In this document: positions 1 to 12,061 of the stretch, piece after piece
Layout of the letters: the number at the start of each line of letters is the position of its first letter
Numbering within the stretch: the stretch's first letter is position 1
NCBI GenBank assembly: GCA_903834675.1
Contig: CAILKC010000394.1
Location: 1-12,061, forward strand
DNA length: 12,061 nt
From: an uncultured Victivallales bacterium
Lineage (GTDB): Bacteria > Verrucomicrobiota > Lentisphaeria > Oligosphaerales > JAFGRS01
Direction: 5' to 3'
Notes under the pieces: model-generated
Database searches by the model: none
The model's input: only the letters and a program-made list of their open reading frames with translations
Told to the model about the DNA's origin: nothing
Program-made: the position numbers and the translations under genes

Positions 1-1094
1 CCGACGATGCCCAGGCTCCGACAGATCTCCTTTGAGAGCACGCCTTTGCCCTCGAAGCGAGCCAGAACCGATGGGCTCTCCCAGAGCAGGTTGATGGCGC
101 TGGCGGCGTCGCTCTGCAGGGCATCGAGTCGTTGCCGCAGGCTGGCGACACGCTCGCCATCGGCGTCAAAACGGACCCCGCCAGGCCGCACCAGACCGCG
201 GCCAAAACGGTTGCCGCAGAGCACGGCGGTCATGTTCAACGCATCGCCACGAATGCGACCGCAATAGGCGGAGGTGGGCAGGAAGCCGACGTCGTTGGCC
301 AGGGCGCCAAGGTCGCCGATGTGGTTGGCCAGGCGTTCCAGTTCGAGCGCGATGCCGCGCAGGACTTGGCCGCGCACCGGCGGCTGGACCGCGCCGAGGG
401 CCTCGAGGGCTTGGCAGTAGGCCGTGGCGTGGCCGATGCTCGTGTCCCCAGCCAGGGTCTCGGCCAGATGCAAGCCGCGGCCGACCGAGCTGCCGGGCAG
501 GGCTTCCTCGACGCCCCGATGCTGGTAGCCCAGCGCGATTTCCAGGTGAAAAACATGTTCGCCGTGACACTGGAAACGGAAGTGGCCAGGCTCGATGATG
601 CCAGCATGCACCGGCCCGACCGCGACCTCATGGACGTCCTGCCCCTCGACCCGGTAGAAGTCGCCGACACCCGGCAGAATGGGCTCGCCTGGCCGGCGCC
701 CCCAGGCATCGCGAGGCGGCTGCCACGATGAGCGGTAGCGCACGGGCTTGAACCAGGGATGGCCCAGCGCGCGCAGCCCGAACTGCTCGCCGATCTCGCG
801 CTCGAAAAGGTGTACCTGAGGGCACTCTGGGGTCAGCGAGGGGAACTCTGGTCCGGTCACCGAGGTCCGGGCCACCCCCAGTCGGTTGCGGGAGTCGTCG
901 GCGAGGATGAGGTACAGGTCCACGGTGTCCGGGGCCGCGCTGGCGGCGCCAAAGCAGGCGACGATACGGCGGCCGTCGGCGACCGCGCTGAGCAGAGTGG
1001 TCCGGAAGTCGTCCAGGCGGAGCTGCGGGATCTGGGCCAGGGGCAAGGCCTGACCGTTGCGCAAGGGTGCCAGGTTGGGATACTGGGCGGTCAT
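1..1094 (-). CDS. hyfG: HyfG-like NuoCD-type large subunit, cysteine-less at the first Ni site (3' end outside window)
   Basis: Translating the minus strand from the ATG at 1094 gives 364 open codons to the window edge; the C-terminus is missing. Residues 1-140 match the NuoC/30-kDa domain, with FEREIGEQFGLRALGHP at 97-113. From about 155 the NuoD/HycE large-subunit domain begins (VGPVHAGIIEPGHFRF 159-174, GYQHRGVEE 189-197, LERLANHIGDLGAL 252-265). In group 4 hydrogenases HRG is followed by a CGxC-type motif that binds the Ni-Fe site. Here that stretch reads ETLAGDTSIGHATAYC (212-227), so both cysteines are gone; C227 and later cysteines are isolated. The C-terminal cysteine pair is out of view. 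The protein should be the peripheral-arm subunit facing HyfC, by family. The ATG overlaps the hyfF stop (ATGA), with GAGG about 8 nt upstream, so translation is probably coupled. HyfG-like or Ehr-type is secure; loss of hydrogenase activity is inference. Confidence 0.9.
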   Translation of the reverse strand, partial: MTAQYPNLAPLRNGQALPLAQIPQLRLDDFRTTLLSAVADGRRIVACFGAASAAPDTVDLYLILADDSRNRLGVARTSVTGPEFPSLTPECPQVHLFEREIGEQFGLRALGHPWFKPVRYRSSWQPPRDAWGRRPGEPILPGVGDFYRVEGQDVHEVAVGPVHAGIIEPGHFRFQCHGEHVFHLEIALGYQHRGVEEALPGSSVGRGLHLAETLAGDTSIGHATAYCQALEALGAVQPPVRGQVLRGIALELERLANHIGDLGALANDVGFLPTSAYCGRIRGDALNMTAVLCGNRFGRGLVRPGGVRFDADGERVASLRQRLDALQSDAASAINLLWESPSVLARFEGKGVLSKEICRSLGIV

Positions 1095-2524
1095 GGCGTG
1101 GCCTCGAGGAAGTGGACCGCAGCGAGCAGCCGGGAATTCAGGAACTCCGGGGTGGTGAGTCCCAGCACCAGGACCGCCCCCAGGAGCAGCAACGACGGCA
1201 GGACCGTGAGTAATTCGTCGCGGTAGGCCGTGCGCGGAGCGGCGTTGGGCGCCTTGCCTTGCACCATCAGCAGAATCGTGGCCCCCATGCCGATGAAGAC
1301 GATGAACAGGAAGAGCAGGAACAACCCGCCGACCCAGAACTGGGCCCGGTCGAAAGCGGAACACAGGATGGTGAATTCGCTGATGAACGGCCCAAACGGC
1401 GGCGACCCAGTGATCGCCAGGAGCCCCGCCAGCAGCAGTCCGCCGGAGACCGGCACCCGTCGCAAGGCGCCGCGCACCGTGTCGGTGGTGGTGCTGTTGT
1501 AGGCCCGATGAATGTTCCCCGCCGCCATGAACAGAATACCCTTGGTCAAGCCGTTGTTGAAGAGGTGCAGGAGACTGCCGTAGACGGCGCCGCCGCCGAT
1601 GCCCAGCCCCAGGACCAGAATCCCCATATGCTCCACGCTGGAGTAGGCCAGGAGGCGCTTGAAGTCCTGTTGCCCCACCATCAGCACGCCGGCCACCGCC
1701 ATCGAGAGCAACCCCATGAACACCAGCAGCCGGGAGGCGTAGGCCCCCTCGCCGGCCGCGGCGCAGAGGTGGTAGATGCGCAGAATGCACAGGAAAGCGC
1801 AACTGGTGACCCCGCCCGCCAGCAGCGCGCCCACCGCAGCGGGCGCTTCGCCGTAGGCGTCGGGCTTCCAGGTGTGCATCGGCGCCAGGCCCATCTTGGT
1901 GCCGTAGCCGACGAGCATCAGGACAAAGGCCGCGTGCAGCCAGGGCTTGGACAGTTGCGGCGCGCTGACCAACAACTCGCTGTAGACCAGCGACGGCGCC
2001 AGGCCCGAGTGCAGTGAGGCGTAGGCCAGGAAGAACGACCCCAACAGCGCCAGGGCAATGCCGACGGAACCGATCAGCATGTACTTCCAGGTCGCCTCGA
2101 TGGAACGCGGGGTGTGGTTGAAGTAGATCAGCGGCGCCGTACATAGCGCCGTGGCTTCGATCGCCACCCACATCAGGCCCAGGTGGTTGGACCAGATGAC
2201 CAGGCTGAGGGTGCCGAGGCACGCCTGGAAGCACATGCAGAAGATGCGGTTCGAGCGCTCCTGCCGATAGCGCAGGTACCCCACCGTGTAGAAGGAGACG
2301 ACGGCGAACACCAGGCTGAGCAGCAGCAGGACCAGGCCGCCGACCGGGTCCAGCACCAGCCAGGCCGCGCTAACCCGCAGGTCGGGCCGCGCCAGGGTCA
2401 GCAGCGTCAGCCCCAGATGCGTCACCCCCGTGAGCGGCAGCAGCCAGGGCCGCCAGTGTGACGAACGGATGAGAAAGGCGACCAGCGCCATGACGAGCGG
2501 CAGGAAGATCAGCGCGAACGCCAT
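1091..2524 (-). CDS. hyfF: HyfF-like antiporter-type membrane subunit
   Basis: The 477-residue, strongly hydrophobic protein belongs to the NuoL/M/N and Mrp-antiporter-like family and is nearest to HyfF/HycC-type subunits. The family's ion-path charges are present: E123 in WVAIEATAL, K210 and H217 in GYGTKMGLAPMHTWKPDA (206-223), K289 in QQDFKRLLAYSSVEHMG (285-301) and K328 in LFNNGLTKGILF. About 14 membrane segments can be seen, with no long C-terminal arm. E. coli HyfF is somewhat longer (about 526 residues), but lengths near 480 occur in Hyf-like complexes. The gene sits 3 bp after hyfE with AAGGA 8 nt before the ATG and overlaps hyfG by 4 bp, so it is within the same operon. Its expected role is proton or sodium translocation coupled to the redox arm. 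The family assignment is strong; the ion is unknown. Confidence 0.93.
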   Translation of the reverse strand: MAFALIFLPLVMALVAFLIRSSHWRPWLLPLTGVTHLGLTLLTLARPDLRVSAAWLVLDPVGGLVLLLLSLVFAVVSFYTVGYLRYRQERSNRIFCMCFQACLGTLSLVIWSNHLGLMWVAIEATALCTAPLIYFNHTPRSIEATWKYMLIGSVGIALALLGSFFLAYASLHSGLAPSLVYSELLVSAPQLSKPWLHAAFVLMLVGYGTKMGLAPMHTWKPDAYGEAPAAVGALLAGGVTSCAFLCILRIYHLCAAAGEGAYASRLLVFMGLLSMAVAGVLMVGQQDFKRLLAYSSVEHMGILVLGLGIGGGAVYGSLLHLFNNGLTKGILFMAAGNIHRAYNSTTTDTVRGALRRVPVSGGLLLAGLLAITGSPPFGPFISEFTILCSAFDRAQFWVGGLFLLFLFIVFIGMGATILLMVQGKAPNAAPRTAYRDELLTVLPSLLLLGAVLVLGLTTPEFLNSRLLAAVHFLEATP

Positions 2525-2527
2525 GCC

Positions 2528-3169
2528 CTATTCCTTCAGCGACACCAGGCGGCGCGTGTCCAGCGAGGAGAACGCCTGGTTGATGTGGTTGACGATGATG
2601 CAGATCACAAACACACCGACGAACAGGTCCAGGAGTACCGCCAGCTCGACCACCAGCGGCATGGCCTCAACCAGCATCATACCGAAGATGAAGATGCCGT
2701 TCTCCAGCACCAGGTAGCCGATCACCTGGGTGATGGCTTTGGCGCGGGTGATGAGCAGCAGGAACCCGACGAACATGGTGGCAAGCGAGGCCGGCACGAG
2801 CAGCGGCGCCGTATGCGCATTTTCCAGGGGCAATTGCGAGGCGAAAAGCAGCGCGAATCCGGTGGCCATGGCGCCTAGGATCATGCAGGGCAGGAAACCG
2901 ATGAGCGGTTGCACCTCATGCTTGATCTGGGCATCCCGCATAGCGCGATACAGCATCCGCGGGATGATCACGCCCTTCAGCGCGATCGCCGCCACCGCGG
3001 CCAGGGCGCCGGCGTAGCTCACATGCCCCTCCACCAGCAGCGGCATGACCCCGAGCAACGCGCCCTGCAGGGTCACGGCGCCGATGACGGCCAGGATGCG
3101 GCTGGTGCCGAGGGCGTACAGGTTCAGCACCAGCACCACGACCAGCAGCGAATTCAGCAGCGCATCCAT
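2528..3169 (-). CDS. hyfE: HyfE-like (NuoK-related) membrane subunit
   Basis: The 213-residue integral membrane protein has the HyfE layout; E. coli HyfE is 216 residues. About six to seven hydrophobic segments are visible. The NuoK-like core is at the C-terminal half, with E156 in VIGYLVLENGIFIFG, followed by E175 and D181 in the next segment (VVELAVLLDLF). These buried acids are candidate proton-relay residues, as in NuoK, which links the quinone-side NuoH-like subunit to the antiporter chain. The frame stays open far upstream (to 3586) through hyfC, but the upstream part is arginine/proline-rich shadow. The ATG at 3169 gives family length, lies 5 bp after the hyfC stop and has GAGGTGA just upstream. 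It is followed after 3 bp by hyfF. Confidence 0.92.
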   Translation of the reverse strand: MDALLNSLLVVVLVLNLYALGTSRILAVIGAVTLQGALLGVMPLLVEGHVSYAGALAAVAAIALKGVIIPRMLYRAMRDAQIKHEVQPLIGFLPCMILGAMATGFALLFASQLPLENAHTAPLLVPASLATMFVGFLLLITRAKAITQVIGYLVLENGIFIFGMMLVEAMPLVVELAVLLDLFVGVFVICIIVNHINQAFSSLDTRRLVSLKE

Positions 3170-3174
3170 GTCTC

Positions 3175-4083
3175 TCACCTCAGCAGAAGGACAAACCCGA
3201 AGCCGCAGAACAGGATGGCGGCAATCAGCAGATGCGGCACGTGCCGCATTTGCAGCCGCGCCATGACCGACTCCACCACCCCCACCGCCACCGCCAGTCC
3301 CAGCATCTCGCCCATAAACAGCAGCCGGTCGAGCCAGGGGTTGCCGAGACTGAACGGGGCCACGACGTGCAGCCACACCGCCCCCAGCACGAACAACTTG
3401 ATGGCGGCGCCGTAGAGGATCAGGCCCAGCAGCGGGCCGCTGTGGTCGAGCACCATCACCTCGTGGATCATGGTCAGTTCCAGGTGGGTGTTGGGGTCGT
3501 CCACCGGGATGCGGCAGTTCTCCGCCAGGAGCAGAATGAAGAGGCCAAGCGCCACCAGCACCAGGGGCGCGGCGTGCAGCTTCCACCCGCCGGCCATTGG
3601 CGCTTGCAGCAGGTCTCCCAGCAGCAGCGACCCCGAGATGCGGGCCAGGACCAGCAAGGCAAAGAACAGGGCCGGCTCAGACAGACAAGCAAAGGTCACT
3701 TCGCGGGCCGCCCCCATGCCCTCGAAGGGTGACCCCGTGTCGAGGGCGGCGCTGGTCGTGAAGAAGCGGCCCAGGGCCAGGAGGTAGGCGAAGAGGATCA
3801 GGTCCCCGGTGAACGAGATCGGCGCGCCGAACCCGCCCAGGGGCACGATCAACCCCGCCAGCAGCACCGCGGCCAGGGTCACGACGGGCGCGGCCACGAA
3901 GACCCAGGTCGTGGTGCGGCTGATCACCACACCCTTGCGCATGAGTTTGATGAGGTCGTGGTAAGGTTGCAGCAACGGCGGCCCAACGCGCCCGGCAAAC
4001 AGCGCCTTGGTCTTGCCGATCACCCCCAGGAGCAGGGGCGGCATCAGCACCAGCAGCGTCAGATGAATCCAGAGGTCGGTCAT
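3175..4083 (-). CDS. hyfC: HyfC-like (NuoH/HycD family) membrane subunit
   Basis: This 302-residue membrane protein of the NuoH/HycD/HyfC family anchors the peripheral arm and, in complex I, forms the quinone cavity and first channel. Visible hallmarks are GRVGPPLLQPYHDLIKLMRK (31-50), the loop DTGSPFEGMGAAREV (115-129) leading to SEP (135-137), and AENCRIPVDDPNTHLELTM (187-205) followed by HEVM. The conserved acids E121, E128, E136, D195, D196, E202 and E208 are retained. The length is near that of E. coli HyfC (about 315). The start follows hyfB copy 2 by 22 bp; only a weak GGACGG precedes the ATG, while a better AAGGTGGAG lies about 14 nt away, and no in-frame alternative start exists before the hyfB stop. 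Because the loop that contacts HyfG is intact, the complex is probably assembled with its hydrophilic arm despite HyfG lacking the Ni-site motif. Confidence 0.94.
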   Translation of the reverse strand: MTDLWIHLTLLVLMPPLLLGVIGKTKALFAGRVGPPLLQPYHDLIKLMRKGVVISRTTTWVFVAAPVVTLAAVLLAGLIVPLGGFGAPISFTGDLILFAYLLALGRFFTTSAALDTGSPFEGMGAAREVTFACLSEPALFFALLVLARISGSLLLGDLLQAPMAGGWKLHAAPLVLVALGLFILLLAENCRIPVDDPNTHLELTMIHEVMVLDHSGPLLGLILYGAAIKLFVLGAVWLHVVAPFSLGNPWLDRLLFMGEMLGLAVAVGVVESVMARLQMRHVPHLLIAAILFCGFGFVLLLR

Positions 4084-4105
4084 GGCAGCCGTCCAGTCTC
4101 CACCT

Positions 4106-6130
4106 TCACGGCGCGTGTAGCCGCGTCAGCAGGCGTCCCCAAGGCATGGTCCAGGCCAGCAGCACGATAACGGTGGCGAGCATGTAGAGCAGGTAGTGCT
4201 GCGTGACCCCGCCCTGGATACGACGCATGCGGATGAAGCCGCGTTCGAGCCAGCGTGACCAGGGCAGGATTTGCCCATCCAGGACCGGGTCGGCTACGTG
4301 CGTCGAGAACGAGGCCGGGGCCGGAAAAGCGTCCCGTAGGACCGGCGCCTGCGTCTGCGAGCGGAGGACGCCGCGGAATAACTCCACCAGCATCTGCACA
4401 AAGGACGAGGCGGTGTACTGGATGCGCGGAGTCGGCGCCAGATAGCCGCAGCCCCAGGTGTCGGCGGCCGCGACCCCGCCCCGCCGCAGGCGGCCGCGCA
4501 GCAGCAGCCACAGCAGGAAGATCACCCCGACCAGGGTGACGCCGAGCAGGCTGACCGCCTCCAACGCGGCGAGATCCGCCACCCGGCTCCCGCTGTCGGC
4601 GGCGTTGGGCAACCAGGCGGCGATGGCGCGGTCCAGCGCCGGCGCCACTAGGAAAGGCGCCAGACCGATCAGGGCGCAACCACCGGCGAGCACAACCATG
4701 GGTACGGTCATGGCCAGCGGTGGTTCATGCGCGTGCGCCGCCGCCCCGCTGCGGGCCACGCCGAGGAACACGACGCCGTAGACCTTCACAAAACAGGCCA
4801 GGGCCAGGGCCCCGATCAGCGCCAGAGCGGGCGCTAGAAAGGCCGCAGCGCAGGCGACTCCGGGCGCGCCCTGCACCGATCCCAGCAGCCCGAGGTAGAT
4901 CAGAAACTCGCTGACGAACCCATTCAGCGGCGGCAGCCCGCAGATCGCCACGGCCCCGACGCCGAACAGGGTCGCGGTCAACGGCATGCGTCCGGCCAGC
5001 CCGCCCAGACGATCGATCTGCCGAGTGTGGGTGGCATGCACCACGCTGCCGGCACCGAAGAACAGAAGGGCCTTGAACAGACTGTGGTTCCACACGTGCA
5101 GCAAGCCCCCCGCCAGTCCCAGCACCACCCAGGCAGGCCGCCCCAGAGAACGGCCCAGCAGAGCCAGGCCCAATCCCATCACAATGATCCCGATATTCTC
5201 GACGCTGCAATACGCCAGCAGACGTTTCAGGTCGTGCTGCCCCATGGCAAACAGAATCCCCAGCACTCCACTTATCGCCCCGGCCAGTAGCAGTATAGCG
5301 CCCCACTCCAGCGGCGGCGCCGGTAACAACCCCAGGAAGCGCACCAGCCCGTAGACGCCCATCTTGATCAGCACCCCGGACATCAGGGCCGACACATGAC
5401 TCGGCGCGTTGGCGTGCGCCGAGGGCAGCCAGAAGTGCAGCGGCATCAGCCCCGCCTTCAGGCCAAACCCGAGCAGCGCCAGCAGGTAGATGGCCCACAG
5501 CAGGCCGGGGCTGGCCTCGGACGCTGCCAAGGCGCGAATCTCGAAGCTGCCCGTCGCCCGGTGCAACAAAGCGAACAGCGCAAACAACGCCAGCGAGCCC
5601 ACGTGCGTCGCAATGAGGTACAGCCAACCCGCGGCGCGGCAGTCCTCCCGTTGCTCCTCGGCGCTCACCAGAAAGAAGGCGCCCAAGGCCATCAACTCCC
5701 AGCCCAGCAGGAACGGAAACGCATGCCGGGCCAGGAGCAGCAGCCCCATCCCCGCCACGGTGACGCCCCAGAACAAGCTCAGCTTCCGGCCGTTGCTCAG
5801 GTGCCGTGCCTGACGCCAGTAGCCCAGGCCGTAGACCGCCCCCAGCGCCCCCAGCAGGAAAACCGGGACCAGGAAGAAGGCGCTCAGCCCGTCCACCGCC
5901 AGCCGCAGGCCCGTTGTGCCGCTGCCAGCCGCTGTCAGCACGAGGCTGGACACCGTCCCGCGGACCAGCACGGCGACCGCCCCACAGAGCCCGATCCCGG
6001 CCCCGGCCACAACCGCGGCGGCCGCCAGCCGCTGCCCGGTCGGCCGGCGGCGGTCCAGCCACAGCCCCGGCACACCGCTCAGCCCAATCAGGGCCAGGGC
6101 TGCCAGAATCAAGGTGAGAGGGGAGGTCAT
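4106..6130 (-). CDS. hyfB: HyfB-like antiporter-type subunit, copy 2 (operon-proximal)
   Basis: A 674-residue membrane protein of the NuoL/Mrp-like family, of HyfB/HycC type. Ion-path residues are present: E145 in LLGWELMAL, K225 and H232 in GFGLKAGLMPLHFWLPSAHA (221-240), K256 in SGVLIKMG, K302 in GQHDLKRLLAYCSVENIG (297-314) and K353 in HVWNHSLFKALLFF. After the antiporter core, a C-terminal extension from about residue 550 includes TWGCGYLAPTPRIQYTASSF (558-577) and a final transmembrane segment near 645-665, as in HyfB/HycC proteins. It directly precedes hyfC, as in E. coli hyf. Start: ATG at 6130 with GGAG six nt upstream. By hand count it matches copy 1 at about 550 of 674 positions (82%), ungapped. 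It is preceded by its own HTH-EIIA regulator 43 bp upstream. Confidence 0.93.
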   Translation of the reverse strand: MTSPLTLILAALALIGLSGVPGLWLDRRRPTGQRLAAAAVVAGAGIGLCGAVAVLVRGTVSSLVLTAAGSGTTGLRLAVDGLSAFFLVPVFLLGALGAVYGLGYWRQARHLSNGRKLSLFWGVTVAGMGLLLLARHAFPFLLGWELMALGAFFLVSAEEQREDCRAAGWLYLIATHVGSLALFALFALLHRATGSFEIRALAASEASPGLLWAIYLLALLGFGLKAGLMPLHFWLPSAHANAPSHVSALMSGVLIKMGVYGLVRFLGLLPAPPLEWGAILLLAGAISGVLGILFAMGQHDLKRLLAYCSVENIGIIVMGLGLALLGRSLGRPAWVVLGLAGGLLHVWNHSLFKALLFFGAGSVVHATHTRQIDRLGGLAGRMPLTATLFGVGAVAICGLPPLNGFVSEFLIYLGLLGSVQGAPGVACAAAFLAPALALIGALALACFVKVYGVVFLGVARSGAAAHAHEPPLAMTVPMVVLAGGCALIGLAPFLVAPALDRAIAAWLPNAADSGSRVADLAALEAVSLLGVTLVGVIFLLWLLLRGRLRRGGVAAADTWGCGYLAPTPRIQYTASSFVQMLVELFRGVLRSQTQAPVLRDAFPAPASFSTHVADPVLDGQILPWSRWLERGFIRMRRIQGGVTQHYLLYMLATVIVLLAWTMPWGRLLTRLHAP

Positions 6131-6173
6131 TCACGACTCCAGAACCGGAACCCCGGCGCCGTCGCAGGCCGGG

Positions 6174-6872
6174 TCACGTTGGCTTGCCCTGCGGCGCCCC
6201 GGGCAGCGACGCTTCGGCCAGCGCCAGCTTCTCCAGCAGTTCGTCGCGCAGCGCCTCCCGCTTCAGGGCGGCTTTGAACTCCGGGTGGTGCAAGACGAAT
6301 CCCAGGCGCGACAACAGATGCAGATGCGCCTGCACCGTGGGACTGATCAGCGTGAACAAGATCTTCACGGGCCCGCCATCCAAAGCCCCAAAGGCAATCG
6401 GGTTCTCCAGGAAACACAGGGTGATGGTCGGACGAGTGATGTGCAGCACGATCGGGTTGCGGACATGCGGAATCGCGATGCCGTCCCCAACCCCCGTCGA
6501 TCCCAGCGTCTCACGGGCCAGCAGGACCTGGTACAGAAACTGCCGGTCCACCTCTTCCGGCAGCCGCAGCAACTCCACCACCGCGGCCAGCACCGACGCC
6601 TTGTCCGACCCACCGATACGATAGGCCACCCCCCCCGCCTTCAGCGCCTCCACCAGGCTCGGTAGCAGTACCTGGCCCGCATCCGGCTCAAGCAGCATCG
6701 CCGGCGAAAGCTGCATGCGCTTGCAGGTCGCCCACTCCAGAACCTCGGCCCGATTGAAGCGGTACAGGTCCCCAACCCGATGAAATGGAATCGTGCCGGC
6801 TTTGACCCAGCGGTAAAGGGTCTTCTCCGACACATCCAAGATCCGGGCCACATCTCGAACCTGCAGATTCAT
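6174..6872 (-). CDS. HTH (excisionase/MerR-type)-PTS EIIA fusion regulator, copy 2
   Basis: The 232-residue protein has two domains. Residues 1-50 form a winged HTH of the excisionase/MerR (HTH_17) kind: LQVRDVARILDVSEKTLYRW, then AGTIPFHRVGDLYRFNR. Residues about 70-220 match PTS EIIA of the nitrogen/fructose type, with the phospho-acceptor motif DGIAIPHVRNP (H136) and a second histidine pair in QAHLHLLSR (H183, H185). It probably binds DNA and is switched by phosphorylation at H136 or by binding a partner; the controlled gene is not shown. It lies between the two hyfB genes and 43 bp before copy 2 of hyfB, so it likely controls this operon, and perhaps itself. Start choice: the frame extends upstream to a GTG at 6917, but the ATG at 6872 has a G-rich run 8 nt upstream and gives the same 232 residues as copy 1. 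By hand count it is about 85% identical to copy 1 (198 of 232). Confidence 0.87.
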   Translation of the reverse strand: MNLQVRDVARILDVSEKTLYRWVKAGTIPFHRVGDLYRFNRAEVLEWATCKRMQLSPAMLLEPDAGQVLLPSLVEALKAGGVAYRIGGSDKASVLAAVVELLRLPEEVDRQFLYQVLLARETLGSTGVGDGIAIPHVRNPIVLHITRPTITLCFLENPIAFGALDGGPVKILFTLISPTVQAHLHLLSRLGFVLHHPEFKAALKREALRDELLEKLALAEASLPGAPQGKPT

Positions 6873-6941
6873 CGCCAAGACCCCCGCCACTGGACGTGTC
6901 GGCCCAGGGCAGGACACGCCATGGGCTCCATTCGCGCTAAG

Positions 6942-6976
6942 TAGACAAATATAGACACGGCCGGACGTCTTTCCAT
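6942..6976 (-). promoter_or_regulatory. Candidate promoter with TGTCTA direct repeats, copy 2
   Basis: Reading the minus strand, ATGGAA (6976-6971) is followed by 17 nt and TATATT (6953-6948), a plausible sigma70-type -35/-10 pair (3 of 6 and 5 of 6 consensus). Two TGTCTA repeats (6957-6952 and 6947-6942) start exactly 10 bp apart and overlap the -10. The same block, without gaps, stands at the same distance (70 bp) before the start of regulator copy 1. This conservation, in DNA whose surroundings have drifted, is the main evidence. The repeats could be an operator for the adjacent HTH-EIIA regulator (inference). A further shared element, GCGTGTCC on the minus strand, lies in the leader at 6919-6912. 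Confidence 0.5.
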
Positions 6977-7008
6977 GGGGGGGCTGATCTTTATCGAGGT
7001 ACCCTGCC

Positions 7009-9033
7009 TCAGCGGGCGTAGAGCCGGGTCAGCAGGCGGCCCCAGGGCATGGTCCAGGCCAGGAGCGCGATGACGGTCAGGAGGATGTAGAGCAGGTAGT
7101 GCTGAGTGACGCCGCCCTGGATCCGCCGCAGCCGGATGAAACCGCGCTCGATGCGGCGTGACCACGGCAGGATTTGTCCGTCCAGGATCGGGTCTGGCAC
7201 GTGGGTTGAGAACGAGGCCCGGCCCGGAAAGACCTCCCGCAGAGCCGGTGCGTGCGTCTGCGGCCGCAACACTCCCCGGAACAGGACCACGAGCATCTGC
7301 ACAAAGGACGAGGCGGTATACTGCATCCGCGGACCGGGCGCCAGATAGCCGCAGCCCCAGGTGCTGGCGGAGGCTACCCCGCCCCGCCGCAGGCGACCGC
7401 GCAGGAGCACCCCCAGCAGGCCGGTGACCCCGAGCAGCGTCACGCCAAGCAGGCTGATCGCCTCCAGCGTGGCCAGATCCGCCACCCGGCCGCAGGCGTC
7501 GGCAGGGCCGGGCAGCCAGACGGCAAGCGCGCGGTCCAGCACCGGCGCCACCAGGAAAGGAGCCAGGCCGATCAGGACGCAGCACCCCGCCAGAATCCCC
7601 ATGGGCACGAGCATCGTCAGCGCTGGCTCATGAGCGTGTTCCGCCGCCGCGCTGCGGGCCGTGCCGAGGAACACGGCGCCGTAGACTTTCACGAAACAGG
7701 CCAGGGCCAAGGCCCCAATCAGCGCCAAGGCGGGCGCCGCAAACGCGACAGCCCAGGTCGTCCCCGGCGCGGCCTGCAGCGAACCCAGCAAACCCAGATA
7801 GATCAGAAACTCGCTCACGAACCCGTTCAGTGGAGGCAGCCCGCAGATCGCCACGGCCCCCACGCCAAACATCGTCGCGGTCACCGGCATGCGCTTGGCC
7901 AGCCCGCCCAGGCGGTCGATCTGCCGGGTATGGGTGGCGTGGACCACGCCGCCGGCACTGAGGAACAGGAGGGCCTTGAACAGGCAGTGGTTCCAGACGT
8001 GCAACAGGCCGCCCCCGAGCCCCAGCACCACCCAGGCCGGACGGCCCAACGAACGGCCCAGCAGAGCCAGGCCGAGACCCATCACGATGATGCCGATATT
8101 CTCGACGCTGTGATACGCCAGCAGCCGCTTCAGATCGTGCTGGCCAAGGGCGAAGAGAACCCCCAGCACCCCGCTCACCGCCCCGGCCAGCAGCAGCAAC
8201 CCACCCCATCCCGGGGGCGGTTCCGGCAGCAGGCCGAGGAAGCGCACCAGTCCGTAGATCCCCATCTTGATCAGGACGCCGGACATCAGGGCCGACACAT
8301 GACTCGGCGCATTGGCGTGCGCCGAGGGCAACCAGAAGTGCAGCGGCATCAGCCCCGCCTTCAGCCCAAACGCGAGCAGCGCCAGCAGGTAGATGGCCCA
8401 CAACAGGCCGAGACTGGCCTCGTGCGTTGCCACCGCGCGCATCTCGAAAGTCCCCGTCGCCTGGTGCAGGAGCGCGAACATCGCAAAGAGCGCCAGCGTC
8501 CCCACATGCGTCGCAGCCAGATAGAGCCAGCCCGTAGCGCGGCAGTCCGCCCGTTGCTCCTCGGTGCTCACCAGGAAGAAGGCGCCCAAGGCCATCAATT
8601 CCCAGCCCAGCAGGAAGGCGAAGGCGTGCCGCGCCAGGACTTGCAGCACCAGCCCCGACACGGTGACGCCCCAGAACAGGCTCAACTTCCGGCCATTGCT
8701 CAGGTGCCGCGCCTGCCGCCAGTAGCCCAGGCCATAGACCGCCCCCAGCGCCGCCATCAGAAAGACCGGGACCAGGAAGAAGGCGCTCAGCCCATCCACC
8801 GCCAGCCGGATGTTCGCCGTCCCCAGGCCGCACCACGGCAGCGTGCGGCTGACCTCCTCGCCGGAGATCAGCACCTGGATGACGCCACACATTCCGAGCA
8901 GCGCCCCGGCCACGACCGCAAGCACCGCCAGCCACTGCCCCTCCGGCCGCCGCCGATTCAGACACAACCCCGGCACGCCGCTCAACCCGATCAGGGCCGC
9001 GGCGGCCAGAATCAACGAGAGCGGAGAAATCAT
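7009..9033 (-). CDS. hyfB: HyfB-like antiporter-type subunit, copy 1 (promoter-distal from hyfC)
   Basis: A 674-residue paralogue of the HyfB protein encoded downstream, aligned without gaps. All ion-path residues are retained at the same positions (E145, K225, H232, K256, K302, K353), as is the C-terminal extension with TWGCGYLAPGPRMQYTASSF, so it looks functional rather than decayed. Differences from copy 2 cluster at residues 51-70 (about 6 of 20 identical), 271-280, 421-430 and 471-480, mostly loop or early membrane segments; 81-120 is nearly invariant (38 of 40). Start: ATG at 9033 with GGAG six nt upstream. Two HyfB plus HyfF give three antiporter-like subunits, the number in complex I and in E. 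coli Hyf (HyfB, HyfD, HyfF). Copy 1 may fill the HyfD position or form an alternative complex (inference). No hyfC-like gene follows it directly; regulator copy 2 does. Confidence 0.92.
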   Translation of the reverse strand: MISPLSLILAAAALIGLSGVPGLCLNRRRPEGQWLAVLAVVAGALLGMCGVIQVLISGEEVSRTLPWCGLGTANIRLAVDGLSAFFLVPVFLMAALGAVYGLGYWRQARHLSNGRKLSLFWGVTVSGLVLQVLARHAFAFLLGWELMALGAFFLVSTEEQRADCRATGWLYLAATHVGTLALFAMFALLHQATGTFEMRAVATHEASLGLLWAIYLLALLAFGLKAGLMPLHFWLPSAHANAPSHVSALMSGVLIKMGIYGLVRFLGLLPEPPPGWGGLLLLAGAVSGVLGVLFALGQHDLKRLLAYHSVENIGIIVMGLGLALLGRSLGRPAWVVLGLGGGLLHVWNHCLFKALLFLSAGGVVHATHTRQIDRLGGLAKRMPVTATMFGVGAVAICGLPPLNGFVSEFLIYLGLLGSLQAAPGTTWAVAFAAPALALIGALALACFVKVYGAVFLGTARSAAAEHAHEPALTMLVPMGILAGCCVLIGLAPFLVAPVLDRALAVWLPGPADACGRVADLATLEAISLLGVTLLGVTGLLGVLLRGRLRRGGVASASTWGCGYLAPGPRMQYTASSFVQMLVVLFRGVLRPQTHAPALREVFPGRASFSTHVPDPILDGQILPWSRRIERGFIRLRRIQGGVTQHYLLYILLTVIALLAWTMPWGRLLTRLYAR

Positions 9034-9076
9034 ACACCACTCCAGAACCGAGACGCCAACCCCGCACGACGCGAGG

Positions 9077-9775
9077 TCACGCCGACGGCCGCGGCGGCTG
9101 CATGGGTAGGGCGGCCTCGGCCAGCGCCAGCTTCTCCAGGAGTTCGTCGCGCAGCGCCTCGCGCTTCAGAGCCGCTTTGAACTCCGACTGGCGCAGCACA
9201 AAGGCCAGGCGCGACAGCAAGTGCAGATGCGCTTGCACCGTGGGACTGATCAAGGTGAACAGAATCTTCACCGGCGCCCCGTCAAGCGCCCCAAAAGGAA
9301 TCGGGTTCTCCAGGAAACACAGAGTGATGGTCGGACGGGTAATATGCAGCACGATCGGGTTGCGGACATGCGGGATCGCGATGCCGTCTCCTACCCCCGT
9401 CGATCCCAGCGTCTCACGGGCCAGCAGGACCTGATAGAGAAACTGCCGATCCACCTCTTCCGGCAGCCGCAGCACCTCCACCACCGCGGCCAGCACCGAG
9501 GCCGGGTCCGTCCCGCCGACCCGGTAAGCGATGCCGCCGGCGGTCACGGCCTCTACCAGACTCGGCAGCGATACCTGATCCGCATCCGGCTCCACCAGGA
9601 TCTCCGGCGAGACCTGCAGGCCCGTGGCGGTTGCCCACTCCAGAATCTCGGCGCGATTGAAGCGGTACAGGTCCCCAACCCGATGGAACGGAATCGTGCC
9701 GGCCTTGACCCAGCGGTACAGGGTCTTCTCCGATACATCCAAGATCCGGGCCATATCTCGAACCTGCAGATCCAT
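9077..9775 (-). CDS. HTH (excisionase/MerR-type)-PTS EIIA fusion regulator, copy 1
   Basis: This 232-residue protein is the paralogue of the regulator before hyfB copy 2 and has the same domains: an N-terminal HTH (LQVRDMARILDVSEKTLYRW) and a C-terminal EIIA domain with DGIAIPHVRNP (H136) intact. The HTH segment at residues 9-43 is identical between copies and so is 102-159, so both regulators probably read the same DNA site and the same phosphoryl signal. Drift is confined to the linker (49-63), a few positions in the EIIA N-terminus and the last 12 residues. The frame is open up to 9982, but the upstream part is not conserved; the ATG at 9775 has AAGGG 8 nt upstream and gives equal length in both copies. 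hyfB copy 1 begins 43 bp downstream. The function in ion-pump control is inferred from context. Confidence 0.86.
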   Translation of the reverse strand: MDLQVRDMARILDVSEKTLYRWVKAGTIPFHRVGDLYRFNRAEILEWATATGLQVSPEILVEPDADQVSLPSLVEAVTAGGIAYRVGGTDPASVLAAVVEVLRLPEEVDRQFLYQVLLARETLGSTGVGDGIAIPHVRNPIVLHITRPTITLCFLENPIPFGALDGAPVKILFTLISPTVQAHLHLLSRLAFVLRQSEFKAALKREALRDELLEKLALAEAALPMQPPRPSA

Positions 9776-9844
9776 GGCCAAAACCCTTGCTGCTGGGTGG
9801 GCGGTTCCACCGCTGGACACGCGCTGGTCACATGTCGCACTAGA

Positions 9845-9879
9845 GAGACAACTATAGACATGGCCCAAGGTCTTGCCAT
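9845..9879 (-). promoter_or_regulatory. Candidate promoter with TGTCTA/TGTCTC direct repeats, copy 1
   Basis: On the minus strand, ATGGCA (9879-9874, 4 of 6 for TTGACA) is followed by a 17-nt spacer and TATAGT (9856-9851, 5 of 6 for TATAAT). TGTCTA (9860-9855) and TGTCTC (9850-9845) are 10 bp apart and overlap the -10. The block lies 70 bp before the ATG of regulator copy 1, exactly as in copy 2, and the CCATGG next to the -35 is shared. The leader also repeats GCGTGTCC (9822-9815). Likely role: promoter for regulator plus hyfB copy 1, possibly autoregulated. Confidence 0.5.
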
Positions 9880-10001
9880 GGGTGCGAGGCGCTTTTCTCG
9901 ACCTGTGCAATAGGAACAACCGTCCCTGTTCTGGCCTTCTGCATGCGCTCCTCAAGCGCCACGAGCCTGGCAAGCTTGGCAAAGCGGTTCTCCCGCTTCA
10001 T
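9852..10001 (-). CDS. Doubtful 49-residue ORF, unrecognised
   Basis: The ORF begins ATG at 10001 with GGGAAG 7 nt upstream and ends at a TAG inside the candidate -10 box of the regulator promoter. The product is basic and helical at its start (MKRENRFAKLARLVALEE) and resembles nothing I recognise. It could be a relic of an antitoxin-like gene, given the toxin-antitoxin debris 270 bp upstream, or chance. The overlap with the promoter argues that its tail is not conserved for protein sequence. Confidence 0.25.
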   Translation of the reverse strand: MKRENRFAKLARLVALEERMQKARTGTVVPIAQVEKSASHPWQDLGPCL

Positions 10002-10035
10002 GACAACTTCCCGGACCCGCAACTCACGCTCATCT

Positions 10036-10070
10036 GCTCCACGTCTGGCGCCCGTCTGGCGCGAGGCGGA
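10036..10070. repeat. 35-bp direct repeat, copy A
   Basis: Identical to 10219-10253 except one base (T at 10043, C at 10226). Inside it, GTCTGGCGC occurs twice, 11 bp apart, around a GGCGCC palindrome. It is probably a dispersed intergenic element; only two copies are in view. Confidence 0.75.
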
Positions 10071-10135
10071 TTTGAGATGCCATCCCTGACCGTCTCTTCC
10101 GCCCGCAGGGCGTGGAGGTCGGCGGGCCGTCATGC

Positions 10136-10153
10136 CGGAAGGCAGGACTTCCG
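10136..10153. other. Small hairpin in the non-coding stretch
   Basis: CGGAAG (10136-10141) and CTTCCG (10148-10153) can pair around a 6-nt loop, with a further GCC/GGC pairing possible across a bulge. There is no T tract on either strand, so a simple terminator is unlikely. It lies midway between the two 35-bp repeats and may be part of the same element. Confidence 0.4.
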
Positions 10154-10218
10154 CCGGCTCTGGATGGGGATACGGCGGGGACCGCCTCCAGGGATGGGGG
10201 ACAATCGGGCCGACCGCG

Positions 10219-10253
10219 GCTCCACGCCTGGCGCCCGTCTGGCGCGAGGCGGA
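10219..10253. repeat. 35-bp direct repeat, copy B
   Basis: Second copy of the element at 10036-10070, in the same orientation, displaced by 183 bp, with a single mismatch. The DNA outside the 35 bp does not align, so the repeat has sharp borders. Confidence 0.75.
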
Positions 10254-10277
10254 CGAGAGACGATGGCAACGCCTGGA

Positions 10278-10466
10278 TCAGCCGCGGCGACCAGCCATCA
10301 GCGGCATCCGCGTTCTCGGTGCCCCAGTGCGCCGGTCCACGATGCTTGTGAGCGGCTTGCGCTCCATCGCCTGCAGCGTGGCTACCATCGCCGCGAGGTC
10401 GTAGGCATGCTCACGGGCAAAGTCGTCCCGGTGACGCCAGACCTCCTGTAGTATCTCATTCTTCAT
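10278..10466 (-). CDS. Small antitoxin-like protein, partner type of PIN toxins (possibly orphan)
   Basis: The 62-residue ORF starts MKNEILQEVWRHRDDFAREH and continues AYDLAAMVATLQAMER. This pattern (short acidic-basic start, 'EEVRxxRD...YDLxAI...L') is typical of small proteins encoded beside PIN-domain toxins. The ATG at 10466 has GGAGGG 8 nt upstream, which supports it as the start. The frame continues upstream into a PIN-like leader. The usual order is antitoxin followed by toxin, but no PIN gene follows here, so it is orphaned. The family assignment is from memory of the pattern and is moderate. Confidence 0.5.
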   Translation of the reverse strand: MKNEILQEVWRHRDDFAREHAYDLAAMVATLQAMERKPLTSIVDRRTGAPRTRMPLMAGRRG

Positions 10467-10523
10467 TGGACGTGCCCTCCAACTGAGGATGGAGGTCTCT
10501 ACGTATACGGTGGTTCTGTTCAT
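10467..10523 (-). pseudogene. PIN-domain toxin N-terminal fragment
   Basis: The ATG at 10523 begins MNRTTVYVETSILS, the usual first strand of a PIN ribonuclease of the 'VYVETSxxS' group, with the first catalytic acid region. After about 14 residues the similarity stops, and the frame runs through GGAGGGCACGTCCA, which looks like the ribosome binding site of the antitoxin-like ORF. The remaining about 130 residues and the other catalytic acids are absent, so it cannot be an active nuclease. It is a likely deletion relic of a toxin-antitoxin locus. Confidence 0.5.
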
Positions 10524-10581
10524 ACTGCACCGTATTCGCCAAGAGCCGTTGGTGCAACCGCATGCGCCGGCCTGATCCCCC

Positions 10582-12061
10582 TCAGCCGAGGCGCACGACC
10601 TGTTCGCTGGCTGACAACGGCACCGCCAGGCGCGCCACGTACTCCTCAACCGGGGCCAAGCCGTCCTGACGGTAGGGATTGTGCGGCGTCACCGGGTAGT
10701 TCACCTGCGTCCCAGGCGGCAGGTGGAACGTCCTGCCGCGCCACTGCAGGCGGCCTCCGGAGGCGCCGAAATAGCGCTCGATATGACCGGTGGGGGTGAC
10801 CGTGGTCTCGACCTCGTCCAGCCGCACGACATCCCCCGCTTCCAGCCGCAACATCAGCGCGCCCTCATACTGCTCCGCGGGCCGTCGGCAGGACGCGAGC
10901 CGGAAGCCGATCTCGGCGTGCTCCGCGGCCAGGGCCAGACGAACCTCGATCCGGTCCTCGCCGAAAGCGTAGGCCGCAGTGGCCGTGTCGGCGGTCTGCG
11001 CCAGCACTACCGCCGAATCTGGAAGGTAAGGCCGCCCCGACGTCTTCCGCCGCAGGGTCGAGAAGCGTGGCATGTACTTGCTGTTGCCACCACCCACCAG
11101 GTACCCGGAGGTCGCGTGGTGCAGTTCAACGAAGTTCTGCGCGTCGAGAACGAAGCGATTCGTGGTCTCCGCGGTGAGCTGCCAACTGAGAAAGGCGGTC
11201 CAGGGGCCGGCCTCGAGACGAGCGGCTGGGATGCCGCTGAGGCTGTGCTCCGGCAAGCCCTCCGGCAAGCTCTCGCGGCGGGCGGCAAGAAAGGCTGGCA
11301 GAAGCGCGAAAAAGGCCAGGCCCTGCGCCCCGATCTTCCCCGCCGGCGTGCCAGGCAGCAGCCGGGCAAAACCGCTGACCCGCCGCAGGCACTCCGCCCG
11401 GCCCTCGGGGGTCCGCAGAAACGACGGCGGCAGAAAGACCATCGGCCGCGGCGAGTAGCGCATCCGGCAGTCCGCGGCCACCGAACTCGACCCGTCTGGA
11501 AAAGAGAACAGGCGCGCGAAAGGCAGATACCGCCCCAGCGCCGCCAGGGCCCCGGCATCCCCGGCGGCCTCGGCATACACCGACACCGCCTGAGCCGTCA
11601 CCATGGCGTAGTTCACCACCATGCCCCCACCTTCCGGCCAGCACCCCGTGCTGTCCTGAAACGGCAGCACCTGCCGCCGGAAGAAGTCTTGCGCCAAGGC
11701 CACCCAGGCCGTCTCTCCGAAGCGCACCCCAGCCTCGTAACACAACAACGCATGCCACACCGCGTGATTCCCCGGGAAGGCGGCGCAGCAGTGATTCGGA
11801 GCGCCATAGGCCTTGGCGAGGTCCGCGTAGATGCGCCCGCTGGCGCCGCGCAGACTGCGGGCGAGGCGCTCCCGGAGGTCGGCCGAACCGAGCCGCCGCG
11901 ACTCGAGCACATCCAGCGACCTGAGCAGAAAGTAGTTCGACCATTCGCCCACATGGCGGCCCCAGTCCCGGCCCTTCGAGTAGTGCGGCGTCATGAAATC
12001 GCTGCCCGTGATGCGGAGCAGGTACTCGAGGTTGCGGAGTGCGCAGGCCCGCAGCAACTCC
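10582..12061 (-). CDS. Large protein resembling an alpha/alpha-toroid carbohydrate-active enzyme (5' end outside window)
   Basis: The frame is open to the window's right edge; about 492 codons are visible, ending TGA at 10582. The first 290 or so visible residues are helical with repeated aromatic/His-rich turns (WSNYFLLRSLDV near 39-50, FPGNHAVWHALLCYEAG at 94-110, CWPEGGGMVVNYAMVTAQ at 139-156), as in (alpha/alpha)n toroids. The rest is beta-rich, with short strands (for example RIEVRLALAAEHAEIGFRL) and ends near HNPYRQDGLAPVEEYVARL. This two-part plan is that of heparinase II/III-like lyases and some hydrolases, but I do not recognise a specific family or catalytic residues. It may act on polysaccharide; substrate and localisation are unknown because the N-terminus is missing. 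It is not linked to the hyf genes by spacing. Confidence 0.6.
   Translation of the reverse strand, partial: ELLRACALRNLEYLLRITGSDFMTPHYSKGRDWGRHVGEWSNYFLLRSLDVLESRRLGSADLRERLARSLRGASGRIYADLAKAYGAPNHCCAAFPGNHAVWHALLCYEAGVRFGETAWVALAQDFFRRQVLPFQDSTGCWPEGGGMVVNYAMVTAQAVSVYAEAAGDAGALAALGRYLPFARLFSFPDGSSSVAADCRMRYSPRPMVFLPPSFLRTPEGRAECLRRVSGFARLLPGTPAGKIGAQGLAFFALLPAFLAARRESLPEGLPEHSLSGIPAARLEAGPWTAFLSWQLTAETTNRFVLDAQNFVELHHATSGYLVGGGNSKYMPRFSTLRRKTSGRPYLPDSAVVLAQTADTATAAYAFGEDRIEVRLALAAEHAEIGFRLASCRRPAEQYEGALMLRLEAGDVVRLDEVETTVTPTGHIERYFGASGGRLQWRGRTFHLPPGTQVNYPVTPHNPYRQDGLAPVEEYVARLAVPLSASEQVVRLG

Follow-up and report, generated by a model that had tools for sequence, protein, structure and literature searches.

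What does a membrane complex built like a group 4 hydrogenase do when its large subunit lacks the cysteines that hold nickel and iron? The question is raised by a stretch of 12,061 nucleotides from an uncultured Victivallales bacterium (GenBank assembly GCA_903834675.1, contig CAILKC010000394.1, positions 1 to 12,061), referred to here as the window. At its left edge, a minus-strand frame (positions 3-1094; 364 aa, stop-free and open at the window edge) encodes an EhrL/HyfG-like large subunit with fused NuoC-like and NuoD-like parts (PF00329, PF00346), cut at residue 364 of about 511. A preliminary description of this DNA held that the protein had lost the first [NiFe] cysteine motif, that the operon probably encodes an Ehr-type complex and not a hydrogenase, and that the ordered AGDTSIGH sequence in place of the cysteines may be a new substrate or quinone-site motif.

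Energy-converting-hydrogenase-related (Ehr) complexes without CxxC motifs or Ni/Fe-binding residues have already been published (PMC10284858, PMC6349859, PMC3569383), and one Desulfotomaculum EhrL has all four cysteines (PMC3569383). The physiological role of the Geobacter sulfurreducens Ehr was termed never investigated (PMC7894505), and among the listed titles and abstract openings of open-licence papers, none described the replacement motif or a demonstrated Ehr reaction. Relatives of the large subunit are very common, with at least 8000 scored proteins, the best 120 of which were examined.

All four Ni/Fe cysteines are replaced in the large subunit

The site in question, ETLAGDTSIGHATAYC, comprises residues 212-227 (window 414-461, minus strand; the preliminary description had given 410-460) and follows HRGVEE at residues 192-197. 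Alignment to HycE of the 7z0s structure (HMMER, E 4.6e-52; homology spanning residues 79 to 506) and to E. coli K-12 HycE and HyfG (MAFFT) placed A215-G-D-T218 (bases 452-441) without gaps on the CGIC site, C241-G-I-C244 in HycE, with A215 and T218 opposite the [NiFe] ligands C241 and C244.

The missing C-terminal end can be judged because a full-length relative from a protein collection search, P0002 (511 aa), is 99% identical over the shared part. The C-terminal cysteine pair, outside the window itself, is absent from P0002 and from a 79-row alignment that includes L001; C531 and C534 of the HycE DPCYSC motif correspond to S505 and G508 in P0002. P0002 ends in SYCGHDL, its final residue opposite HycE R537. 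HycE continues for 32 more residues, the tail cut off on maturation, and P0002 has no processed tail after the last motif. All four Ni/Fe cysteines of group 4 hydrogenases are thus replaced, by A/S215, T/S218, S505 and G508. The absence of the first motif is thereby confirmed, while "lost" describes it poorly, as the replacement is common to the whole sampled Ehr family.

Operon structure in the window and in related loci

Upstream of the large-subunit gene, and likewise on the minus strand, lie genes for a HyfF-like antiporter-type membrane subunit (1091-2524; PF00361, with NCBIfam hydrogenase 4 subunit F below cut-off), a HyfE-like membrane subunit corresponding to EhrC (2528-3169; NF008556, E 4e-18, below cut-off; first-Met start chosen by eye), a HyfC/NuoH-like membrane anchor (3175-4083; PF00146, E 2e-32) and a HyfB/NuoL-like antiporter subunit (copy 2, 4106-6130; PF00361, with NF005086 at 584 bits, below cut-off). 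They are preceded by a regulator gene combining an excisionase/MerR-type helix-turn-helix (HTH) with a PTS EIIA domain (copy 2, 6174-6917; PF12728, PF00359; EIIA histidine motif IAIPH), by a second HyfB gene (copy 1, 7009-9033; 82% identical to copy 2) and by a second regulator gene (copy 1, 9077-9982; 85% identical, with the shared part starting at residue 55). PF00361 in three proteins, PF00146 in one and a HyfE-like match in one make up a complex I-like membrane arm. No NuoEFG NADH module was found among the families in the nine scanned window proteins.

Positions 4106-9982 form a tandem duplicate of the HTH-EIIA and HyfB unit, with 83% DNA identity over 2789 bases. Both HyfB copies cluster with the first and single copies of other loci (tree of 60 of 73 HyfB rows); apparently, the window lacks the usual second HyfB, and the first was duplicated again along with its regulator. 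Further upstream on the same strand, an open frame of 491-492 aa (10582-12060), open at the window edge, gave no Pfam or NCBIfam match at E 0.001. A plasmid location of the window was rejected, bases 1-6100 having no near match among plasmid records.

Relatives are encoded in 220 stretches from species-level genomes, of which the best 80 loci were kept. As far as their contigs reach, the genes of these loci run in the order HTH-EIIA, one or two HyfB, HyfC, HyfE, HyfF, HyfG and a ferredoxin-NuoB fusion, although some Geobacterales loci have HTH-EIIA and the first HyfB in inverted orientation. Where the upstream sequence extends for 7.8 kb or more, 37 of 58 loci have the HTH-EIIA gene, and the EIIA histidine motif is kept in 41 of 42 HTH-EIIA ORFs. 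This gene probably couples expression to the PTS phosphorylation state.

The ferredoxin-NuoB fusion, the small subunit, follows the large subunit in 74 of the 80 relatives and would lie beyond the edge of the window itself. Three of the six misses have at most 104 downstream bases (L010, L014, L040), while L070 (1.1 kb), L061 and L051 have enough. Its eight ferredoxin-type cysteines and the proximal-cluster cysteines C139, C142, C206 and C236 are conserved in 56-61 of 61 relatives, and the first proximal-cluster cysteines have the C-x-x-C spacing of hydrogenases.

Using E. coli queries (tblastn, E 1e-3), we found no homologue of hypA-E, hycH or hycI in the window or in the 80 related loci with flanks of up to 10 kb; the search retrieves each query from its own locus, and distant homologues could escape it. 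Gene neighbors were rejected as a clue to the substrate, since even the ORF cluster most often found outside the operon, a signalling-type one, recurs in just 15 of the 80 loci, followed by a GAPDH-like cluster (13) and a small minus-strand gene (12); the signalling-type and GAPDH-like labels were assigned by inspection of the sequence.

Conservation of the replacement set

Among 78 loci complete at the C-terminus plus P0002, which make up the 79-row alignment, G216, D217 and H222 are invariant. For a broader view, 392 genomes of two phyla were searched and part of the listed matches was fetched, giving 204 large-subunit rows: 29 with Ni/Fe cysteines, 168 Ehr, three of a third cysteine-less type and four of complex I. 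Near relatives dominate this set, because the rows are P0002 matches picked by rank and by hand; compared from residue 150 on, the 168 Ehr rows include 162 distinct ones. G216 occurs in 168 of the 168 Ehr rows (162/162 distinct), D217 in 166 (160/162), Thr or Ser at 218 in 159 (153/162) and H222 in 149 (143/162), while Cys occurs at 215 in a single one. This conservation exceeds chance. It also divides the motif named in the preliminary description: the [AS]-G-D-[TS] half is nearly invariant in cysteine-less relatives, which was the test proposed there, but H222 is not, and we therefore dropped AGDTxIGH as a single motif.

The Ehr C-terminus carries the exact signature NKSFNxSY-x-G-x-D-L. Because the presence of NKS close to the C-terminus served to define an Ehr row, the invariance of N499-K500-S501 exists by construction; without this criterion, NKS is found in 168 of the 171 rows outside complex I that have no N-terminal cysteine pair, the other three being the third cysteine-less type. 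Twenty positions are at least 97% fixed in Ehr and below 10% in the 29 hydrogenase rows. Thirteen of them (N499 and K500 by construction) map to the former active-site loops (164-170, 217 and 495-511), and the remaining seven are 151, 159, 184, 261, 268, 451 and 474. The emptied cavity has been rebuilt and afterwards held nearly fixed across the Ehr family.

Six of the 29 rows with Ni/Fe cysteines have an in-frame TGA at one or both positions of the first pair. They are group 4 hydrogenase large subunits (L193-L198, from genomes G250, G361, G286, G212, G382 and G210) reading U-G-I-U in L193-L197 and U-G-I-C in L198, with a normal DPCFSC C-terminus; SelB exceeded its cut-off in four of the six genomes, the others being G250 and G210. 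By sequence, the L193-L197-type site resembles a double-selenocysteine site in a group 4 hydrogenase.

A cavity without the old ligands could in principle hold a new metal center on the extra cysteines of window-type Ehr, C176, C278, C293, C498 and C507. These are frequent in the 168 Ehr rows (152, 139, 143, 161 and 151, respectively) and rare in the 29 hydrogenase rows (0, 3, 0, 0 and 1). Still, in the 17 Ehr rows without C507 the others are kept in only 2 (C176), 4 (C278), 0 (C293) and 13 (C498), while the GD pair and the C-terminal block stay; moreover, the five cysteines are far apart in sequence and our structural model leaves 495-511 unplaced. We give this explanation little credence. 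C507 alone separates these two sets of Ehr rows, and the 17 rows are not one clade.

The replacement is old and shared

A tree of 93 of the 204 rows, calculated with the motif columns (residues 212-222 and 495-511) omitted, placed Ehr and the third cysteine-less type on one side of a branch with an SH-aLRT of 100. Complex I lies among the hydrogenases on the other side (SH-aLRT 95), and the tree therefore implies two separate losses of the Ni/Fe site; it is a quick tree in which both complex I and the third type sit on long branches, with the attendant warning of long branches meeting. Local decay of a hydrogenase was rejected on the grounds of motif invariance and the single deep branch. The cysteine replacement is old and shared.

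The third cysteine-less type (L181, L182, L183) reads ERFSGSSAFAH or ERFTGTSAFAH at the first site and ends in FGLSNAECDR or FGLSVAESDR, which sets it apart from Ehr by its C-terminus. In addition, three loci (L055, L071, L073) carry a second Ehr large subunit, 39-40% identical, upstream of the window-type operon on the same contig, with an SGDS..AH motif and an SYSGxDL end.

Proton-delivery residues are kept in the cavity

The residues described for proton delivery in HycE are Glu193 in the beta1-beta2 loop, Arg478, His284, Glu437, Arg395, Ser283 and Asp529 (PMC9474812). In the 168 Ehr rows, E193 is kept as E168 (168/168), R478 as R452 (168/168), H284 as H258 (166/168), E437 as E411 (168/168) and R395 as R369 (166/168), while Ser283 has become Asn257 (161/168) and the canopy Asp529, termed strictly conserved (PMC9474812), Asn503 (165/168). 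Hence proton-delivery residues survive, and the metal ligands and the canopy aspartate are both gone.

An AlphaFold2 model of P0002, built from 61 aligned sequences, had a mean pLDDT of 87, and its best solved match was HycE (7z0s_E; Foldseek rank 1, TM 0.86 by query length). The pLDDT fell below 50 at residues 160-169 and 495-511; these loops are among the most conserved parts, and their low scores would fit anchoring by partner subunits, although they are no proof of it.

The preliminary suggestion of a quinone-site motif can be put in full as follows: Ehr is a ferredoxin:menaquinone oxidoreductase whose old NiFe cavity binds the quinone headgroup through residues other than those of complex I, perhaps AGDTxIGH. 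Complex I demonstrates that the cavity can turn into a quinone site (PMC9474812), and the retained proton-delivery residues are consistent with such a change. Yet the quinone-headgroup positions of complex I, His38 and Tyr87 (PMC7684303), which are His and Tyr in our four complex I rows, are Ile167 and Gly216 in 168 of 168 Ehr rows, and the small subunit has the hydrogenase-type C-x-x-C instead of the adjacent cysteines of complex I.

Hydrogenase maturation and quinone markers in Ehr-bearing genomes

The genomes themselves bear on both the hydrogenase and the quinone reading. We hand-picked 79 Ehr-bearing genomes from strong matches, 46 from the phylum of G001 (the genome of the nearest fetched locus) and 33 from a second phylum; this sample excludes 12 genomes with weaker, mostly Ehr2-like matches (including G069, of the window's kind), G002, G004 and G006-G008, the split hits in G164 and G191, and the loci left over from the first search for relatives. 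Completeness values are absent for all genomes, so a missing marker may represent a gap.

HypD was detected in 49 of the 79 genomes and undetected in 30. This result bears on whether Ehr is still a hydrogenase that uses other ligands to Ni and Fe. The long homology to HycE, the rank of HycE as best structural match and the Geobacter papers, which still group Ehr with hydrogenases, speak in its favor. Since every thiolate ligand has been replaced, a processed tail is missing, the neighborhood yielded no maturation genes and HypD went undetected in so many genomes, we consider it hardly credible.

A UbiA-family match was missing from 14 of the 79 genomes, every one of them belonging to the G001 phylum. 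The searches for MenD and UbiE covered only the 46 genomes of this phylum, where MenD exceeded the cut-off in 6, UbiE/MenG in 13 and MqnA/D in 4; matches below cut-off were scored as absent (any match: MenD 43/46, UbiE 46/46) and are, in our judgement, related enzymes. In the 14 UbiA-negative genomes these three markers are likewise absent by the same cut-offs, and in 11 of them so is HypD. In the second phylum, MqnA/D was present in 28 of 33 genomes and a UbiA-family protein in all 33. G001 encodes a canonical complex I NuoD (L210), UbiA and UbiE, and quinone use is therefore possible there. G091 has neither HypD nor MqnA/D, and neither MenD nor UbiE over cut-off, but one UbiA-family match; the contig that carries its Ehr measures 5.73 Mb, against a stated genome size of 5.7 Mb.

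The MqnA/D counts of the second phylum favor the quinone reading, as does a raw association in the G001 phylum, where H222 is kept in 15 of 15 genomes with MenD, MqnA/D or UbiE versus 12 of 31 without. However, this association reflects few events (four changes on the tree, three independent pairs) and found no support, so H222 was dropped as a quinone-linked residue. Together with the 14 marker-negative genomes and the Gly216/Ile167 positions, this makes a menaquinone-reducing Ehr unlikely in our view. Of the earlier suggestion, the quinone-site motif is the part with less support.

The Ehr loci that we inspected numbered 11: that of G091 and 10 from the set of 11 genomes lacking both quinone markers and HypD. 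All six core genes were found in eight and five in L235; L237 and L238 are cut by the contig end. None of the 11 had an HTH-EIIA match. In four loci (L231, L232, L233, L239), each belonging to one of the genomes in that set, the Ehr operon is immediately followed by a Na+:neurotransmitter symporter-family gene (family scan for the L231 copy, similarity for the other three), which hints at Na+ coupling.

Proposed function of the Ehr complex

Taken together, an ordinary hydrogenase is very unlikely, because the metal-holding cysteines were replaced long ago by strongly conserved residues; the preliminary assignment to an Ehr-type complex is supported, both cysteine pairs being gone and maturation genes missing nearby. 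The replaced cysteines, the lack of nearby maturation genes and the genomes negative for HypD and quinone markers argue against both a [NiFe] hydrogenase and an obligate quinone reductase. In the reading we favor, the large subunit encoded here is EhrL, and its Ehr complex acts as a ferredoxin-driven ion pump with a small-molecule acceptor, which would be neither H+ nor, in at least some lineages, an endogenous quinone. Reduction of a small molecule coupled to ion pumping is thus the probable function.

In this mechanism, the fused small subunit would take up electrons at its 2x[4Fe-4S] ferredoxin part and pass them by the proximal cluster to a small polar acceptor in a cavity presumably lined by E168, D217, T218, N257, R452, N503, S505 and K500. 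Protons could be supplied by the kept Glu168 and the His258-Glu411-Arg369 chain, and the reaction would drive H+ or Na+ pumping by the HyfB/F/C/E arm.

Several points count against this reading. The UbiA-family and MqnA/D matches of the second phylum and the markers of G001 leave room for quinone use; an absent marker may be a gap, and quinones could be imported. The model has low confidence exactly at the cavity loops, and the fused small subunit lies outside the window. In a Geobacter proteome, all Ehr subunits were more abundant with formate than in hydrogen-containing conditions (PMC7894505), and a possible connection with the formation of H2 from formate was put forward by the authors (PMC7894505).

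Ehr is often grouped with hydrogenases, and our results speak against H2 chemistry and an obligatory quinone acceptor. D217, T218, E168, N503, S505 and C507 are candidates for mutagenesis, and the apparently quinone-free genomes offer a clean setting for the question of the acceptor.

Comparison with known systems

The Ehr complexes and their missing cysteines were already known, the relationship being usually credited to Marreiros et al. in 2013. The detail added here consists of the conserved replacement set, a nearly fixed family-wide site, and the genome tests, which place Ehr in some genomes without detected hydrogenase maturation or quinone synthesis.

The closest described system is the G. 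sulfurreducens Ehr (GSU0739-0745), with NuoL-like EhrA-1, HyfE-like EhrC, large EhrL and small EhrS (PMC7894505), likened here by description. The Geobacterales loci L050 (Trichlorobacter thiogenes) and L067 (a Geobacteraceae MAG) have the same genes and motif as the window; in L050, unlike the window, HTH-EIIA and the first HyfB are inverted, and the window differs from the described Ehr complexes in its extra tandem copy of HTH-EIIA and HyfB. A proposed FDH-Ehr complex in Margulisbacteria and Saganbacteria also lacks Ni/Fe ligands (PMC6349859). For it, a formate dehydrogenase with NuoE/F-like partners was proposed (PMC6349859), none of which were seen in the window, and full ubiquinone and menaquinone pathways were reported as not identified in these genomes (PMC6349859).

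HycE and HyfG share with Ehr the fused NuoC/NuoD-like large subunit, the beta1-beta2 Glu, the canopy Arg and the His-Glu-Arg chain; Ehr differs in lacking the Ni/Fe cysteines, a tail after the last motif and maturation genes found nearby, and in the exchange of Asp529 for Asn503. Complex I (NuoD/Nqo4) has a homologous fold and likewise no Ni/Fe cysteines, whereas Ehr lacks His38/Tyr87 and an NADH module among the scanned proteins and has C-x-x-C in its small subunit, not adjacent cysteines; the two losses lie on different branches of the tree, with complex I long-branched.

MBS of Pyrococcus furiosus, a group 4 relative with a remodelled site and an ion-pumping membrane arm, and without the quinone residues (PMC7684303), suggests a further possibility, namely a sulfane-sulfur reductase in which the proximal cluster performs the chemistry. 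In MBS, however, two of the four large-subunit cysteines remain and the proximal cluster is one ligand short (PMC7684303), whereas Ehr keeps none of the four (apart from Cys215 in 1 of 168 rows) and, judged from the relatives, all four proximal-cluster cysteines; we give this possibility very little credence. With confidence that falls just short of even, we instead propose that the [NiFe]-hydrogenase cavity has taken on yet another function in Ehr: a polar site free of metal, marked by [AS]-G-D-[TS] and the NKS-containing C-terminus, at which ferredoxin would reduce a small molecule other than H+, quinone or sulfane sulfur, yielding a redox-driven ion pump in many bacteria, some of them without detectable quinone synthesis or hydrogenase maturation.
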